Assembly: GCA_937959115.1 (NCBI GenBank)
Contig: CALGAW010000025.1
Span: 124,001 to 188,000 of the forward strand
Reading direction: 5' to 3'
Length of the DNA stretch: 64,000 bases
Origin: an uncultured Saprospiraceae bacterium
Lineage (GTDB): Bacteria; Bacteroidota; Bacteroidia; Chitinophagales; Saprospiraceae
This document shows positions 23,848 through 46,972 of this stretch, one piece after another. Under the pieces are notes generated by a model. The model was given only the letters and a program-made list of their open reading frames with translations. It had not been told where the DNA came from and ran no database searches. A program made the position numbers and the translations under genes. The first letter of the stretch is position 1; each line of letters begins with the position of its first letter.

Positions 23848-26643
23848 TTATTTTTCAAGTTGTGAATAGATTCCATTATTCTCAGACCAGAGAATTCGAT
23901 CTTGGGCGTTGATATCAGAATCCAGTGTATAGTCAAAAGGAGAATAGAGGTTAAACTGACCGTTGGCTTGAATCCAGGAAGCGTAGTCTTGCCCATTGAT
24001 ATCAAACCCGATATCAGTCAACTGATTGCCATCGCCTGCAAACATCGTCCAGACACCTGTAGACAGTTGCTTCTGCCCAAAACCACCTACATAGCTGTTG
24101 GTAGCGCAAAAATCAATTGTAAGGGTACCATTTACTGGAGTAATCAATTGTGGAGATAAGACACCTATGTGATTTCGGTGTTGGATCATGACATAAAAGG
24201 CAGTCGCAAGTGTTCCATCCAATATCCGTTGATCAGGAAAATATAGATCTCCGTTTTCAAGGACCAGAGCTGCAGTTTGTCGAACTTCTGTATTCTTGGT
24301 AAATCCAGTTCTAAAGGAAACCAGTACCCAATCGACTGTATTTGCTGGATAATCAGCTTTTGCCCAGCCTTGCCCTTCTGATCCGTTATAATTCCAAGGA
24401 GGTGTGTTGAAAGGCTGAATATCTGGAAGCAAATCAGATTGCCAGAGGGTTGTTCTCATTTTATTAGTTGACAGGTCGAGGGCTCCTTCTAGACAAACGC
24501 TGATATCTGCCTGTAGAAAATTACACGCAGCATTCCCTTGTCCAGCGTTTTGGAAGGTTCCAGCACAGTTGCAGGCATTATCCACAATCTCATCATTTAT
24601 GGTACAAGGATCGCCATCATCACAGGACTGTCCTAGTAAGCAGGTTCCTTCGCAACTACAATCACTCATGTATCTATCGTTCAATGTGTTCGGATCATTG
24701 TCATCGCAAGGCGTACCAATTAGCTTATCATCAAAATTGGGACAGCTATCGGCGCTATTGCACACACCATCCTGGTCTGAATCTGAGTTTCCGTAGGCAA
24801 AAAATCCGCTACCGCAATACAGTTTTTCGGTAAGATGGAAGCCATTTGTACAATTGTTGATGTATACCCCTTCTCCGTATACATCAGGCGATTCTGTTTC
24901 TTTAATAAGACCGTCTATTGCAACTTTGTCGATGCGCAAGTTATTATCAACTCCATTCACCACATCCCCATTGACCAATCGTATCATCAAACACTCGAAA
25001 GAAACAGGCCCACAATGTGTATAAGAGTAAATCTGATAAATCTGATTGTTAAAATCGCCTCCTATCTTACTCCAAGATGCAACAACCTGTCCATCAATAT
25101 AAAGATCCATGTCTTCTTGGTTCGTTTCGCCTGCTGCCCATATGGTAACGACGGAACAATTTGGAGAAGAAGGAGTCGTTTCCTTATATCCAAGATCCGG
25201 TGCATTGCCATTGAAAAGAAAATTAACAGGCGTATTGTTATTCCAAGAAATTGGAGCTGCAACAATTATCGTAGTCGTGTTTGGAATACCAACAACTAGT
25301 GCTTCTTGGCCTCCAATGTTGATACTGTCTCCTTGAACGATACCGAAGCCATCATTAAAGTATTTAGAATAATCAACAGCAATCGTAGTTCCTGATCCCG
25401 CACTAGTTGTAAAGGTAAGGTCTCCTCCTGCGTCAATACATGGGCTGTTTGCAGCTAAGGAATAATTATTTAGTGTAGGATCAGAGAAATTTGGATATAA
25501 TAGTTGAGGAAAGTCCCCTTGGTAATTCGATTGTGGAGGATTTGTCCCCCAATTGGTATATGCTAAACTGTAGGAGGAATGGCTAATATTATTCGTGGAA
25601 AAATTATCATTTAAATTACCAGCAAAAATATTATTTCTCATTCTGATATTTTGCGGATTATCTGGTTGAACATTTACACCATATGCGTTTCCAGTTAACG
25701 TAGCATGGGCGATTCTCACATCATCTGGATTTTGATAAACGACTAACCCTGATTCATCATTGTTGTAGGACAAACATTTTGTAAAACTCACATCATACCC
25801 GTCGAAACTATTATCATTGGTAACACTGAAGGTAAAGCCGTTACTGTGCCCATTCATTGAAACACAGTTGTGAACGCTGATGTGTGCGATGTCTCCACCT
25901 GAATGTCCTCCAATATCTATACCGTCTTCATGGCAGTAATTCGCAATACAGTTTGCTACTCTTATGTATTTACTATTTTGAACAAGAATACCATCTGCAT
26001 CATCTTTATAGTATTGTTTGCCTTCATGAGAAACATAGCAGCTTGTTATTCCACCATAAGTACTTTCTTCAATTGTAATATTACTCCATTCACTATCAAT
26101 AATAGAACAGTCATCAATAATAAAATCTTCAATATTCCTTAAAAAGATTCCATATTTCCAAGCAGCATTACCATTGTTGTACCCTTTTATATTCTTGATT
26201 CTAATGTTGGTCAATGGTAGTCCATAGGTATTAAAATTCGTTTTTCCATCGAACGTTATTCCATGACCAGTATAATTTTGAACGGTTAGGTTTTCAATAT
26301 GAATATAGGAGGCATGATAGGTATCAAAAGCTGAATTTTCAGTGTTGTTTCCTTCAAGGATTACATTTCCATTTCCAATAATATAAATATACTCCGTTGG
26401 GTTATCAGTCACACCATTAAACCCAAGCCAAACGCCTTCTTGATATGTCCCTTGCCGAACAATCAGATAATCACCATACGTCATTTGATTTACGCCATGT
26501 TGAATGGTCAACCAAGGAGCGTTTGTTGCCCCAGAGTTTGAGTCACTCCCAGATTTTGACACATAATAAGTTGTAGCGCAAGCAATTGAATGATAGAACA
26601 GAAGCGTTACAACAGCAAGAAATAGTTGAATATTGTTAATCAT
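23848..26643 (-). CDS. Secreted parallel beta-helix protein with CBM-like domain, TSP3/Cys-rich linker and shared C-terminal module
   Basis: 931 residues from the ATG at 26643; longer starts would read into the upstream noncoding repeats. Signal peptide (about 1-23), then YYVSKSGSDSNSGA and a right-handed beta-helix (~25-420) of the pectate-lyase type. About 520-640 resembles a calcium-dependent xylan-binding module (VASWSKIGG ... NNLRIDKVAIDG). A TSP3/Cys-rich linker follows (DSDQDGVCNSADSCP). The last ~220 residues form a module also found at the ends of the proteins encoded at 38003-39952 and 44246-46972, closing with dockerin-like DxxLDxDxN motifs. A role in polysaccharide binding or cleavage is likely but no catalytic residues can be assigned. 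No type A sorting domain follows. Confidence 0.87.
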   Translation of the reverse strand: MINNIQLFLAVVTLLFYHSIACATTYYVSKSGSDSNSGATNAPWLTIQHGVNQMTYGDYLIVRQGTYQEGVWLGFNGVTDNPTEYIYIIGNGNVILEGNNTENSAFDTYHASYIHIENLTVQNYTGHGITFDGKTNFNTYGLPLTNIRIKNIKGYNNGNAAWKYGIFLRNIEDFIIDDCSIIDSEWSNITIEESTYGGITSCYVSHEGKQYYKDDADGILVQNSKYIRVANCIANYCHEDGIDIGGHSGGDIAHISVHNCVSMNGHSNGFTFSVTNDNSFDGYDVSFTKCLSYNNDESGLVVYQNPDDVRIAHATLTGNAYGVNVQPDNPQNIRMRNNIFAGNLNDNFSTNNISHSSYSLAYTNWGTNPPQSNYQGDFPQLLYPNFSDPTLNNYSLAANSPCIDAGGDLTFTTSAGSGTTIAVDYSKYFNDGFGIVQGDSINIGGQEALVVGIPNTTTIIVAAPISWNNNTPVNFLFNGNAPDLGYKETTPSSPNCSVVTIWAAGETNQEDMDLYIDGQVVASWSKIGGDFNNQIYQIYSYTHCGPVSFECLMIRLVNGDVVNGVDNNLRIDKVAIDGLIKETESPDVYGEGVYINNCTNGFHLTEKLYCGSGFFAYGNSDSDQDGVCNSADSCPNFDDKLIGTPCDDNDPNTLNDRYMSDCSCEGTCLLGQSCDDGDPCTINDEIVDNACNCAGTFQNAGQGNAACNFLQADISVCLEGALDLSTNKMRTTLWQSDLLPDIQPFNTPPWNYNGSEGQGWAKADYPANTVDWVLVSFRTGFTKNTEVRQTAALVLENGDLYFPDQRILDGTLATAFYVMIQHRNHIGVLSPQLITPVNGTLTIDFCATNSYVGGFGQKQLSTGVWTMFAGDGNQLTDIGFDINGQDYASWIQANGQFNLYSPFDYTLDSDINAQDRILWSENNGIYSQLEK

Positions 26644-26667
26644 AAGAATTAGGCTAGTAACATTAAA

Positions 26668-26861
26668 AGAGTCCACTCTAAAAAGATCTCTTCTTTTGAA
26701 ATTAAACATAATATTGTTATTGCACAAATGTTTAATGCTGCTTATGTTCATTTTTTTCTTGGGCAAGAGTCTACTCTAAAAAGGTCTCTTTTTCGAAACC
26801 AAACATAATATTATTATTGCTTAAATGTGTAATGTTGCTTATGTTCATTTTTTTCTTAGCA
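26668..26861. repeat. Two ~97-bp imperfect direct repeats
   Basis: Copy 1 (26668-26764) and copy 2 (26766-26861) are similar throughout. Both begin AGAGT(C/T)(C/T/A)ACTCTAAAAAG, continue through a TCTCTT tract and AACATAATATT, and end with GCTTATGTTC plus a T-run. They lie directly upstream of the beta-helix gene, and an open frame runs into copy 1, which could mislead start prediction. Their first 19 bases recur inverted at 27013-27031 and 27237-27255. Confidence 0.8.
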
Positions 26862-38002: not shown

Positions 38003-39952
38003 ATGACTACTTCTAAACTAACATCAAGTAAAAATGCCCTATTGATTGGTGTTTTACTGTTTACGTTTATCCTTTTTGGATTCGGAATTAACAACTTTAT
38101 TCTAGGCCATGAATTTCCTGGTTCGAAAACAAGCCCAACTTCCTATAGTCTAGGAAACAAACCTCCTGTATTTGTTCCAATTTTAGATACTATTGGAGGG
38201 GGAACGATTACTAGAATCACTGACAATGATGGCAGTTCTACCAACATTCGACATCATTATAGCGCCTCCCAAGTGTTTAATGCAGATGCGTCAGTGCTGT
38301 TCTTATCAAAAGGAAATAAATATCTTGATGTGACTACCTATGCACCATTGCCATACGGTCATAAAAGTACAGGCAGTGCTCCAATCTGGTCAACTGTGCA
38401 TCCTAAAGAGATGATTTTAACGAGGGACTCAACTCTCTATCGTTGGGACGTTACGACAAACACTGCAGTCAAGGCGTTCAATTTACCTGGATATAAAGAT
38501 TCAAAATTGCATGTAAGAATGAATATTTCTTTTGATGCAACAAAAGCAGCCGTTGTCGCACAAAAAAAGACAGATGACAGTTTCTGGGCAGTTGGAGTAG
38601 ACCTAAACACTGGAGCCATTGGACCAGAGATTTCGTTTGATGCATGGAACTTTTCTGATTTGATTGGAGCCACAAAAGACAGGAGAGCAAGTGCTAGTCC
38701 TACTGGGAAATATATGGTTTTACAAGGAACAGCAGATGGTGAATACCAGCGTACCATTGCATTCGATTGGGACACTGGAGCGCACGTATATTCTTCACCG
38801 CTGACGAATGGCTATGAATGCCCAGGCGGCCATGGAGATTTCACCATTGATGTCAATGGAGAGGATGTATTTGTTGGAATTTGCAAAGGCGGCGGCATTG
38901 GCCCTTCTAGTCAATTTAATGGAGAAACAGTAGTCATGAACTTTAAACAGGGAACCATTACTCCAGTGCCAGGGGTTGGTTATTATTCTCATTATTCTGG
39001 AAGGAATACCAAACGTCTTGGGTGGATCTATGCCTCTACCTATAAGACAACCAGTTCGAGCTCACGTTCTAGAATACTTGCGTTCAAAACAGACGGGTCT
39101 AAAATCGAATATTACGCAGACCCACAAGGGTATAGACTTGGATATGTGCACGAAACACATGCGACACCAAGTCCTGATGGTACAAAAGTGGTGTTTTCAA
39201 GTTCGTGGAATGGTCTAGAGTCGGCAACTGTTTCCAATGATTACCTTCTGGATCTTAGCGATCTAGCGCCGACAGCATTTCAAACAGACATAAACCTTTG
39301 GATAGAAGGTGCTTATGATCAATCCACTAATCACCTAACAACTGTAATTCAATCTAAGAACTTATTGCCTTTAGGACAACCGTTTTCTGATCCTCCTTGG
39401 AACTATCAAGGGACTGAAGGACAAGGTTGGACAGCTTCCAACTACCCTTCTGGAACAACGGACTGGGTAAAGGTAGATTTTCGGACTGGCATTGATCCCT
39501 CTACTCATGTGTTGACACGAGCGGCGTTGCTGATGTCAGATGGCTCGTTGCAGTTTCCGGTGCCAGTTACGCGTGCTGATTTAGAAAACATTACTTCCGT
39601 ATACCTAGTCATAGAGCACCGCAACCATCTTCCAATCATGACACCAACACCTGTTTCATTGACAAACGGTGTCCTTGATTATGATTTTAGAGTGGGAGAC
39701 AGTTATATCTTAAACACGAGTCACGGTCAAAAAGAGATCGCTTCAGGTGTTTGGGCTATGTTCTCAGGTGATACAGATAAAAATGGTGCAGGCTACGAAG
39801 TTACAGGCTTGGACCGGCTGATTTTTAATGTTGAGAATGGAAACTATGGAATCTATAACCAAGCAGACCATAATCTAGATGGTGATGTAAACGGTTTAGA
39901 CAAGATCTATTGGCACAATAACAATGGGGTGTTTTCTGGGATTTCCAAGTAG
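38003..39952 (+). CDS. Secreted beta-propeller-like protein with shared C-terminal module
   Basis: 649 residues. One hydrophobic N-terminal segment (about 13-33) serves as signal or anchor. Residues ~50-425 look like a beta-propeller, with repeated strands and TolB or oligogalacturonate-lyase-like HATPSPDGTKVVFSSSW. From about 430 to the end it carries the module shared with the proteins at 23848-26643 and 44246-46972: WIEGAYD, PPWNYQGTEGQGW, DWVKVDFR, VIEHRNHLP, GVWAMFSGD, then two dockerin-like motifs (GLDRLIFN; DHNLDGDVNGLDKIYW). There is no type A sorting domain. Likely function is carbohydrate-related at the surface; no catalytic residue is assigned. Confidence 0.85.
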   Translation: MTTSKLTSSKNALLIGVLLFTFILFGFGINNFILGHEFPGSKTSPTSYSLGNKPPVFVPILDTIGGGTITRITDNDGSSTNIRHHYSASQVFNADASVLFLSKGNKYLDVTTYAPLPYGHKSTGSAPIWSTVHPKEMILTRDSTLYRWDVTTNTAVKAFNLPGYKDSKLHVRMNISFDATKAAVVAQKKTDDSFWAVGVDLNTGAIGPEISFDAWNFSDLIGATKDRRASASPTGKYMVLQGTADGEYQRTIAFDWDTGAHVYSSPLTNGYECPGGHGDFTIDVNGEDVFVGICKGGGIGPSSQFNGETVVMNFKQGTITPVPGVGYYSHYSGRNTKRLGWIYASTYKTTSSSSRSRILAFKTDGSKIEYYADPQGYRLGYVHETHATPSPDGTKVVFSSSWNGLESATVSNDYLLDLSDLAPTAFQTDINLWIEGAYDQSTNHLTTVIQSKNLLPLGQPFSDPPWNYQGTEGQGWTASNYPSGTTDWVKVDFRTGIDPSTHVLTRAALLMSDGSLQFPVPVTRADLENITSVYLVIEHRNHLPIMTPTPVSLTNGVLDYDFRVGDSYILNTSHGQKEIASGVWAMFSGDTDKNGAGYEVTGLDRLIFNVENGNYGIYNQADHNLDGDVNGLDKIYWHNNNGVFSGISK

Positions 39953-44245: not shown

Positions 44246-46972
44246 ATGCGTATTCTAATACTTCTACTATTGCTATCATTCACTAGCATTTCTTTTTCCC
44301 AAAACATTCTTTCTAATGGTAACTTTGAAGCGGGGACATCGAATTGGTCAACCTGGTTTGATGGGGGATCAGGTTATACAGGTAGCTTTTCGATTGAAAC
44401 GAATGATGTAAACACTGGAGCTCAGAGTGGAAAAATTTTGATTACTGCTATTGGTTCAGCTGCAGAATATCATAAGGTAATGTTGAAAAACACTGGGTTT
44501 AGCCTTCAAGCAAACAAAGAATATCAAGTATCATTTTATGTTCGTTGCAGTAAAGCAGGTCAGACATTTCAGTCACAGCTGCATAAAGACAGTAGTCCTT
44601 ACACCCTTTATACCTCAAAGAACTTTTTATCCTCTACAAGCTGGCAACAGTATACGTACACCTTCACCAGTCCAACAACAACCTCTGATGTTCGCCTTGC
44701 CTTTAAAATGGGTGGCAGTGTAGCCAATTATTATATTGATGATGTGGTTTTGTCGGAAGTTTCAGGACCGTTATATCCAATAGCTATTGATCCTGACTAT
44801 AGTATTGATTGGAGTCAAGCAGGAAGACCTGGAGGCATTCCATCTTTACCAAACGTTTTGAATGTAACAAATTTTGGTGCCGTCGGAAATGGAACGACTA
44901 ATGATTTAACAGCATTTCAAAATGCAGTGAATGCAGCATCTAGTGGGCAAGTAGTGTTTGTACCCGCTGGTGATTACAGGCTCAATGGAACGTTAGACAT
45001 GAAGCAAGGTATCGTCTTACGAGGTGAATGCCCAACCAATACTCGTTTACTTTTCAATCATAATGGAGCTGGAAATAATTGTATTGATATTCTAAGATAT
45101 AACTACGGTTCTTTTGTGGATGTTACCGCTGGTCTAACTAAAGGAAGCACTGTATTCACCGTTGCAAATGCTGGATCATTTACAGTTGGAGGTTATGCAG
45201 AACTACAGCAAGACAATGATCCTGTACTTATGTATACAAACCCAACATGGATTCAATCATGGGCAGAAAACGCTGTTGGACAACTCTTTACAATTACAGC
45301 GATTAACGGAAATCAAATCACCGTAGATAGACCTCTCCACATGGATTTTAATCCTGCGATGAACCCACAACTAAGACAAAATGGCTTTATTTCCGATGTT
45401 GGTATCGAAAATCTATACATTGAACGGTTGGATTCGGGAGATGGACACACTATAAATATCAAAAATGCGGCAAGATGCTGGATTAAAAATATCGAAAGTA
45501 ATATGACTTATCGGGCACATGTTCATTTGTCAAGAGCCATGGATTGTGAAATCGTGAATAATTACTTCCATCATTCCCATGATTATGGAGGTGGAGGACA
45601 TGGTTACGGTGTTGATATATTCGTACATTCAACTTCAAATCTGGTAGAGAATAATATCTTCAACCATTTGAGACATTCAATGTTGATCCATGTAGGTTCA
45701 AATGGAAATGTGTTTGGATATAACTACAGTTATGACCCATTTTGGACTGGAATTAACAATAACCCGCCTGCCGATATTTCAATGCATGGACATTATTCAT
45801 TTATGAATTTGTTTGAAGGCAATATCCTTCAGGAAGCCGATTTCTCTGATTATTGGGGTCCCGGCGGGCCTGGTAACACCATGTTCCGAAATCGTATAGA
45901 AACAGACAATATTTATGTGAGCGATCATTCACATAATAGTAATGTTATTGCAAATGAGCTAATCGGTAATGGAGCCGAGATTGCGGTGCATCCAACTGTT
46001 AACGATACTTGGAAACACAGCAACAATATCAATGGTGTGATTGACGCAACGATAAATGCGACGATTCCTGCTTCTCTTTATAAATCTTCTAAGCCAGATT
46101 TTCTATCAGGATTAGAATTCCCAACGTTTGGACCGGATGTCACCTTAGGAGCAAATACAATCGATGCAAAGCTACGGTTTACAAGTGGCACCCCAATGCT
46201 TGCTTGTGCTTGCAACCCGCAAATTGATTGTTATCCGCTCAACGAAATACAAGTAGACCTCAAGCTTTATCCAGAAGGTGTTTTTGACCTAACTACTTCA
46301 AAACTAAATACGGACTTATACACTAAAGGCTTACTTCCTGGTCAAACTCCGATTGGCAATGTGCCACCAACACCTTCTGGGCATCCTTACGCTGTAGCAC
46401 CATGGAATCATGTTGGCACTGAAGGAAACAACTTTACTGATGCTGATTATGCTAATCTTGACAATGGGACAGTTGCCCCAGTAGACTGGGTTCTGCTTGA
46501 TTTTAGAAGTTCTACAACCGCCACTTCTTCTATTGGAAAAATCTGTGGAATCTTATTATCAGATGGATCGATTGAGCTCTTAAATGATGCCACTTTTTTC
46601 GATAATTTCCCTTCCACATTCTATATCAAAGTAGAGCACCGCAATCACTTACCAGTAATGAGTGCAATCCCTGTTTCAATAACGAATGGCACGATCACAC
46701 ATGACTTTACGAAAGGCAACTCTTATGTAAATGGAGGGTCTGGTAGCAAGGAGCTGATTGCTGGTGTCTGGACAATGTATGCAGGCAACTGCGAACAGTT
46801 GCAAGACATCAACGGCTATGACATCAACGGATTAGACAATCAAGTATGGTCTTCTGACAATGGTAGATTCAGTGTTTATCTGCCTACTGACAACAACCTC
46901 GATGGCGAAGTGAGCGCTGCGGATAAGATACTTTGGTCTATGAATAATGGCTTTTTTAGTACATTGGAATAG
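44246..46972 (+). CDS. Secreted pectate-lyase-like beta-helix protein with N-terminal CBM and shared C-terminal module
   Basis: 908 residues. Signal peptide (about 1-18). Residues ~20-170 form a CBM4/9-like jelly-roll (NGNFEAGTSNW ... YYIDDVVLSEV). From ~210, NVTNFGAVGNGTTNDLTAFQNAV and VPAGDYRLNGTLDM are the start of a pectate-lyase-3/GH55-type parallel beta-helix running to about 640. The last ~235 residues are the module shared with two other secreted proteins here: YPEGVFDL, APWNHVGTEG, DWVLLDFR, KVEHRNHLPVMS, GVWTMYAG, and DNNLDGEVSAADKILW. The fold suggests action on a polysaccharide such as pectin or alginate-like material; specific catalytic residues cannot be assigned. Confidence 0.88.
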   Translation: MRILILLLLLSFTSISFSQNILSNGNFEAGTSNWSTWFDGGSGYTGSFSIETNDVNTGAQSGKILITAIGSAAEYHKVMLKNTGFSLQANKEYQVSFYVRCSKAGQTFQSQLHKDSSPYTLYTSKNFLSSTSWQQYTYTFTSPTTTSDVRLAFKMGGSVANYYIDDVVLSEVSGPLYPIAIDPDYSIDWSQAGRPGGIPSLPNVLNVTNFGAVGNGTTNDLTAFQNAVNAASSGQVVFVPAGDYRLNGTLDMKQGIVLRGECPTNTRLLFNHNGAGNNCIDILRYNYGSFVDVTAGLTKGSTVFTVANAGSFTVGGYAELQQDNDPVLMYTNPTWIQSWAENAVGQLFTITAINGNQITVDRPLHMDFNPAMNPQLRQNGFISDVGIENLYIERLDSGDGHTINIKNAARCWIKNIESNMTYRAHVHLSRAMDCEIVNNYFHHSHDYGGGGHGYGVDIFVHSTSNLVENNIFNHLRHSMLIHVGSNGNVFGYNYSYDPFWTGINNNPPADISMHGHYSFMNLFEGNILQEADFSDYWGPGGPGNTMFRNRIETDNIYVSDHSHNSNVIANELIGNGAEIAVHPTVNDTWKHSNNINGVIDATINATIPASLYKSSKPDFLSGLEFPTFGPDVTLGANTIDAKLRFTSGTPMLACACNPQIDCYPLNEIQVDLKLYPEGVFDLTTSKLNTDLYTKGLLPGQTPIGNVPPTPSGHPYAVAPWNHVGTEGNNFTDADYANLDNGTVAPVDWVLLDFRSSTTATSSIGKICGILLSDGSIELLNDATFFDNFPSTFYIKVEHRNHLPVMSAIPVSITNGTITHDFTKGNSYVNGGSGSKELIAGVWTMYAGNCEQLQDINGYDINGLDNQVWSSDNGRFSVYLPTDNNLDGEVSAADKILWSMNNGFFSTLE

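Follow-up and report, generated by a model that had tools for sequence, protein, structure and literature searches.

Introduction

The window analysed here is a stretch of 64,000 nucleotides from an uncultured Saprospiraceae bacterium (GenBank assembly GCA_937959115.1, contig CALGAW010000025.1, positions 124,001 to 188,000 of the forward strand). Sequence comparison finds that one module of about 220-240 residues terminates three proteins encoded in it, which have differing N-terminal parts. In this paper we looked at the copy number, position and predicted fold of this module and at the proteins that carry it, and we suggest that it serves as a docking tag for a divergent cohesin-like partner domain.

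The three window proteins and their C-terminal module

The first of the three proteins is encoded on the minus strand by an open reading frame (ORF) of 972 amino acids (23848..26766), with its stop codon at 23848 and its likely start at 26643; stop codons crowd the plus frame. Based on the ORF list, the sequence and Pfam, it holds a beta-helix, a CBM60-like domain and the C-terminal module. By eye it has a signal-peptide-like start; a crude score for signal peptides gives 1.94, slightly short of the 2.0 line. The X-dockerin-like module (copy 1, 221 amino acids) lies at 23851..24513 on the minus strand, and its dockerin-like half, with two calcium-type loops, spans 23851..24036 and ends at the stop codon. 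The second is a 649 amino acid secreted protein on the plus strand (38003..39952) ending in module copy 2 (223 amino acids, 39281..39949), which was the query of the structure prediction. Its dockerin-like half (39767..39949), placed by the model and by column conservation, has helices at module residues 176-185 and 205-214. The third, also on the plus strand (44246..46972), is a secreted protein of 908 amino acids with a CBM4_9 domain, a pectate-lyase-like fold and module copy 3 (240 amino acids, 46250..46969), whose dockerin-like half lies at 46784..46969; for copies 1 and 3 this half was delimited by sequence and column conservation.

An earlier note on this DNA had claimed that the three proteins share their C-terminal module, and the claim holds, with a pairwise identity of 40-44% between the copies. 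The motifs that it named are found among the conserved columns (APWNY.GTEG, DWVLVSFR, HRNHL, GVW.M.AGD and DxNLDGDVNGxDKILW..NNG.FS). It was also right that none of the three carries a type A or B sorting domain of the type IX secretion system (T9SS), as the sorting models TIGR04183, TIGR04131 and NF033708 have no match in these proteins at E <= 1; nor does any Pfam or NCBIfam family match the module in them. The N-terminal folds that it assigned are backed to different degrees. Both the pectate-lyase-like fold and the CBM4_9 domain of the third protein are confirmed by Pfam, in the first protein the beta-helix falls just below the Pfam cut-off and CBM60 just above it, and for the second the term propeller is backed by a sub-threshold PD40 match alone.

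Copy number and position of the module

With the window copy as query, the best 150 of 191 candidates in its own genome (G000; 6.38 Mb in 90 contigs) had E <= 2.1e-16, a similarity far above chance. In the fetched DNA of this genome, to which the count refers, 154 module matches were found, one per ORF, 147 of them full-length and 7 partial, with one partial match adjoining a full copy. Most copies sit at the very C-terminus: 129 of the 154 (5 of them partial) end 0-3 residues ahead of the stop codon. Internal copies amount to 24 of the 153 whose position can be judged, the one further copy being cut at a contig end. The stop codon was read for 19 of these 24, and the other five are trailed by 197-232 residues to the edge of the stretch; no other known tail was found on the 18 scanned proteins among the 19. 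The internal copies come mostly from one paralogous family, in which an N-terminal LamG domain is followed by the module, an extra domain of about 100 residues and a beta-helix, and whose genes form tandem arrays (L130 and L131 on G000:C1:1-30658, L129 on G000:C28 and L138 on G000:C43) with varying beta-helix parts. The extra domain reads CPAPNFVLDNC...VNW...YWYDGD and also terminates three other proteins (two at L132, one at L211).

A single-protein query over genome contigs found no relatives; a profile (A1) succeeded and yielded at least 554 stretches, 536 of which were confirmed, and the best 80 were kept and gave 77 loci. In these named relatives, from Saprospiraceae metagenome-assembled genomes, there are 112 module hits (5 partial), a count from which overlapping loci were not removed. 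Among the 107 modules with a complete end, 101 are C-terminal with 0-9 residues left, 4 are internal and 2 lie at a contig end. The module is present in 38 of 295 genomes of the class and in 22 of 60 relatives. Several genomes of genus g71 in family f29 hold many copies of a variant module (for example L287 on G241:C3), whose second half reads DxNMDGKVRYTGxGNDRExIL...QMP at L287; most of the f29 variant matches stop near profile position 214.

Predicted fold and calcium-type loops

The AlphaFold2 model of copy 2, built on an alignment (A2) of 43 copies (the three of the window and those of 40 of the 77 named loci), has a pLDDT of 95.9 and a pTM of 0.92 in its best version. When this model was searched against the PDB with Foldseek, each of the ten best matches proved to be a chain with a type II X-dockerin, with E-values between 8e-5 and 4e-3 and a probability of 1.00. 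Comparison by VIA-align gave Z-scores of 9.5-10.8 to X-dockerins, with a root-mean-square deviation of 3.4-3.9 over 145-149 residues that cover the X and dockerin halves together; the next rows are a lone dockerin (Z 4.7) and the first unrelated fold (Z 4.3). By its predicted fold, then, the module is an X-dockerin dyad packed as one unit, in which a beta-sandwich X half of about 160 residues is modelled against a dockerin-like half of about 62 residues with two calcium-type loops.

The calcium-binding loop of dockerins follows the pattern D-x-N-x-D-G-x-V-N-x-x-D. In the second loop of the module, this canonical pattern is found in most of the 153 aligned copies of the window genome (D206 in 100%, N208 in 78%, D210 in 79%, G211 in 83% and D217 in 97%). 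The first loop of the same copies has D or N at position 172 in 97% and D188 in 99%, and it contains an insert. We call the module X-dockerin-like and not a member of the sequence family, because the Pfam dockerin family PF00404 matches it only weakly (2 of 43 modules) and no X-dockerin is found among its PDB sequence matches.

A divergent cohesin-like domain as candidate partner

The candidate partner of the module is a divergent cohesin-like domain of about 165 residues. A weak match to the Pfam cohesin family PF00963 led to a protein of G002, a genome of the same genus as the window genome, in which this domain makes up the N-terminal part. There are 13, 23, 26 and 19 copies of it in G000, G001, G002 and G005 (the last of the same family), the genomes richest in module among those tested, and a profile search gives 17, 25, 29 and 19. 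In the 10 other genomes tested it was absent from 7 and present in 2, 1 and 1 copies in G037, G047 and G056. Among 295 genomes from the class, 9 have the domain, and each of these has the module as well (p 4e-9, shared ancestry ignored); by profile, it occurs in 14 of the 60 relatives, 13 of which have the module (p 1e-6, likewise). A scan of viral contigs confirmed no relative of it. Ordinary PF00963 cohesins were rejected as the partner, because the window genome yielded none at E <= 0.01 and because their distribution is not associated with that of the module (p 0.40): they are present in 41 of the 60 relatives, among them 16 of the 22 that have the module. These counts are lower bounds, as one cohesin of G005 (E 1e-6) escaped the scan of the 60 relatives.

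The proteins that carry the cohesin-like domain are mainly of two kinds, anchors and adaptors, a pair that follows the logic of the anchoring and adaptor scaffoldins of cellulosomes. In anchors, a T9SS type A tail is combined with between one and four copies of the cohesin-like domain. Among cohesin-like proteins that lack the module, the type A model TIGR04183 matches 18 of the 24 whose C-terminus was read (set A9; the other 8 of the 32 such ORFs are cut at an edge); it also matches all 7 proteins scanned from distant genomes (set A12, without L269 and L274, both of which are cut, and without the 851 amino acid protein of G299 and the 524 amino acid protein of G347). L257 has four tandem cohesin-like domains and a type-A-like tail, and one protein of G299 has three. 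In adaptors the module shares its chain with a cohesin-like domain (L045, L109, L196, L209, L234, L235, L250, L258 and two in L264).

Several side observations concern these proteins. The adaptors at L246/L235 (G000:C17), L250 (G000:C7) and L264 (G002:C13) have a divergent module with loops of the type ADRS...WNNRN, unlike the common tag, and such modules mostly end in QLP or QTP-like residues; judged from sequence, they are possibly a second tag specificity. L259 (G005:C104) contains three neighbouring genes, each with one cohesin-like domain and with differing C-terminal parts, and the NCBIfam model GCX_COOH (3-coathanger stack) matches three proteins of the scanned set, most likely these. 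The proteins of L292 (G299:C23, 851 amino acids, three domains) and L294 (G347:C1, 524 amino acids, one domain) share a similar AG(D/N)CC...CIPFV tail, which by eye is not of type A.

Genes for the module and for the cohesin-like domain are also found next to each other. In each of the 8 genomes of the class that have the domain besides that of the window, from five families (f22, f55 with two genomes, f68 with two, f83 and f87 with two), a cohesin-like gene has a module gene beside it on the same strand. The module gene lies upstream in G060, G093, G106, G292, G299, G310 and G347, and module genes lie on both sides in G206. Of the 12 cohesin-like genes detected in these 8 genomes, 8 have such a neighbour.

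The cohesin fold is a nine-stranded jelly-roll, and CBM3 has a related fold. When 14 sequences picked as divergent (set A11, three of them shared with the alignment A7 and one, L038, a weak member with E 8e-4) were compared with 15 ordinary cohesins in hhalign, the probability was 84% (P 7e-6). The profile of these divergent members gave seven matches among PDB sequences, four of which are cellulosomal cohesins (E 0.08-1.2), and a control profile of ordinary cohesins recovers the solved cohesins as expected. The domain is carried by proteins of the scaffold or anchoring type, with up to four copies in tandem, and it is probably a cohesin.

Proteins that carry the module

Pfam was run on 149 of the 154 module ORFs (fragments were dropped), and the 25 commonest families were reported for each batch. 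The domains on these proteins make up a broad mixture of the exoproteome: LamG, cadherin and Big repeats, CBM9 (on 18 of the 149), CBM6, CBM4_9, beta-helix, LTD/CotH, PKD and SprB repeats, and further leucine-rich repeats (LRR), sortilin/BNR, M4, M36 and S8 peptidases, endonuclease I, PhoD, GH5 and GH10. CBM60 is also present, and some NCBIfam matches are pectate lyases and one xylanase. Among the commonest cargo families, adhesin-type, LamG, PKD, LRR, SprB, CotH/LTD, peptidase and nuclease domains are many and glycoside hydrolases few.

The crude signal-peptide score is at least 2.0 in 136 of 141 module ORFs, a weak discriminator, as the same holds for 20 of the 32 window ORFs of at least 230 amino acids (3 of these 32 are module ORFs). 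A scan of 45 module proteins against NCBIfam found no tail of T9SS type A, B or C on any of them, and with the three window proteins giving the same result, the module was rejected as a known T9SS tail. The window genome itself has at least 150 T9SS type A matches and 40 of type B at E <= 0.001, and SprA was found in all 12 genomes examined.

A proposed docking system and its alternatives

Based on these data, the account that we consider reasonably probable is an X-dockerin/cohesin-like docking system that holds cargo without T9SS signals on T9SS-exported anchors. The module would be a docking tag on a large part of the secreted proteome, and by analogy with known dockerins it would plug, in a calcium-dependent manner, into the divergent cohesin-like domain as its socket. 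Anchors, which bear between one and four sockets, terminate in a sorting domain of T9SS type A and should therefore reach the cell surface, and cargo without a known T9SS signal may thus be displayed there through them; adaptors would extend the network by carrying socket and tag within one chain. The earlier note had offered a calcium-dependent cohesion tag for a cellulosome-like assembly as one possible function. The first part is backed by the predicted X-dockerin fold, by the calcium-type loop residues and by the co-occurring and adjoining cohesin-like domain, and the second looks too narrow, because adhesins, peptidases and a nuclease stand beside the polysaccharide-active cargo.

Several results weigh against this docking system. 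On the side of the tag, the TM-scores of the Foldseek matches with X-dockerins, normalised by query length, are moderate at 0.39-0.47, the best PF00404 match has an E of only 0.13, and 24 copies of the window genome are internal. On the side of the socket, the main alignment of the domain (A7, 43 sequences) shows, when taken alone, no significant similarity to ordinary cohesins (hhalign probability 0.6%, P 0.097), and its profile gives chance matches and no cohesin among PDB sequences. PF00963 matches 2 of the 14 divergent members at E <= 1, with a best E of 0.006. The AlphaFold2 model of the cohesin-like domain, made with two sequences as input, is of low confidence (pLDDT 50, pTM 0.52); in its fold comparison the cohesin 2vo8 ranks sixth with Z 5.8, below the level of trust, CBM3 is also in the top rows (CBM3 and cohesin rows have Z 5.8-6.2), and no Foldseek match reaches E 0.001. 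Our profile detects no partner in 29 of the 38 module genomes of the class; these include genomes of family f29, where 18-72 module candidates stand without a detected partner of the A7 type. Among the relatives, partner hits number 3 against 36 modules in G047 and 1 against 11 in G035; G004, with 11 modules, yields none, and the weak hits of G013 are not accompanied by a module. In the window genome there are about 154 tags for about 17 sockets, and among its 11 socket stretches (L246-L256) a separate module gene adjoins the socket gene only at L251. The remaining 4 of the 12 distant cohesin-like genes (the second ones in G106, G292, G299 and G347) have no adjoining module gene in the DNA that was read, and the p-values for co-occurrence take no account of shared ancestry.

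One possible option is that the T9SS machinery reads the module directly, as an export signal of a further class next to A, B and C, with the dockerin fold incidental and the cohesin-like proteins another class of substrate. The prevalent C-terminal position fits such a signal (129 of 154 copies within three residues of the stop codon, and 101 of 107 within nine in the named relatives), as do the lack of a known tail on the 45 scanned proteins and the fact that nearly all module proteins have signal-peptide-like starts in genomes with a T9SS. Yet the predicted fold matches X-dockerins and not the seven-stranded T9SS tail described in the excerpt of PMC10994853 at hand, the 24 internal copies are hard to reconcile with a signal at the end of the chain, with no other known tail on the 18 that were scanned out of 19 with a stop codon read, and the co-occurrence and adjacency with the cohesin-like domain would be left unexplained. 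We therefore regard a directly read signal as unlikely. The alternative sorting signal of the earlier note is a possible but less favoured reading: it agrees with the absence of known T9SS tails, and the internal copies speak against it.

Another explanation takes the module for a terminal domain with a structural or substrate-binding role, such as an adhesive beta-sandwich with calcium loops, which has no protein partner, and traces the adjacency to islands of surface-protein genes. Tandem arrays of such genes do occur in these genomes, a third of the distant cohesin-like genes (4 of 12) stand without an adjoining module gene, and binding between the module and the cohesin-like domain is a prediction from their co-occurrence and adjacency. 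However, islands do not readily account for the pairs of neighbouring genes on one strand, seen in 8 of 8 genomes and five families, nor for the fusion of both domains in one chain, and a domain without a partner seems improbable to us. A strict cellulosome, in which the tags would assemble plant-polymer-degrading enzymes on scaffolds, is very improbable: GH5, GH10, pectate-lyase-like, CBM4_9, CBM6, CBM9 (18 of 149) and CBM60 domains and the NCBIfam pectate lyase and xylanase matches speak for it, but catalytic glycoside hydrolase families are few against the adhesin-type, LamG, PKD, LRR, SprB, CotH/LTD, peptidase and nuclease domains, a weakening that holds for the 25 commonest families per batch and is tempered by the beta-helices, which may themselves be lyases.

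Relation to known systems

X-dockerin dyads are known to bind cohesins on surface-anchored proteins. The closest known counterparts of the module are the type II X-dockerin dyads, mainly of Clostridium thermocellum scaffoldins (PDB 2b59, 3kcp, 4fl4, 5m0y, 5g5d and 5k39; also 4u3s and 4wi0). The module resembles them in its predicted X/dockerin arrangement over 145-149 residues, its two calcium-type loops and its mostly C-terminal position, and differs from them in having no detectable sequence similarity, a length of 223 against about 156 residues and an insert in the first loop, and in its occurrence on more than 100 cargo proteins, instead of on scaffoldins, in a Gram-negative host with a T9SS. 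With the sorting domains of T9SS types A (TIGR04183), B (TIGR04131) and C (NF033708) it shares a mostly C-terminal position on signal-peptide proteins of T9SS genomes; unlike them, it has no match to these models in the three window proteins or in the 45 module proteins that were scanned, its predicted fold is different and it can be internal.

In the cellulosome of Ruminococcus flavefaciens FD-1, according to the part of PMC2930009 available, there are 222 dockerin proteins, many of them with peptidases and domains of unknown function. The likeness lies in the very large number of tagged proteins and in the extended first calcium loop, which that part of the source describes for one dockerin group; the differences are another phylum, another tag family, the X half inside the tag and the T9SS tails on most of the scanned partners. 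In the excerpts of two studies of cellulose degradation, no cohesin, dockerin or scaffoldin is listed among the cellulose-degrading parts of the Bacteroidetes studied (PMC5831590; PMC6247017). No description of the module or of an X-dockerin system in Bacteroidota was found in the literature searched by title and abstract opening, a search with subscription journals and preprints outside it. A survey of 2009, going by its title, reportedly deals with cohesin and dockerin modules outside cellulosomes. Cohesin-dockerin docking is thus already known, and our search suggests that a version on T9SS anchors across the exoproteome of Bacteroidota is new to that literature.

Implications

The module and the cohesin-like domain form a concrete and testable pair, which could yield a new orthogonal protein-docking couple for biotechnology. 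If the docking system exists, its number of tags would be comparable with that of the R. flavefaciens cellulosome (222 dockerins in the excerpt of PMC2930009), with the difference that the tags would serve a broad exoproteome on T9SS anchors. Some proteins without a recognisable T9SS tail seem to be T9SS-dependent, for a reason that the available part of PMC9936825 leaves open, and docking would bear on this question.

For the passage of the cargo through the outer membrane, piggyback transport with the partner, direct recognition or another route may be considered. On the piggyback route, which we put forward tentatively and hold as rather doubtful, tagged cargo without a T9SS signal of its own would bind its partner in the periplasm and cross the outer membrane on the T9SS tail of this partner. 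If this were true, one T9SS signal would serve many cargoes, the gene pairs of the distant genomes would represent the ancestral form, and the window genome would be an expansion of it with more than 100 tags and a dozen or more sockets.

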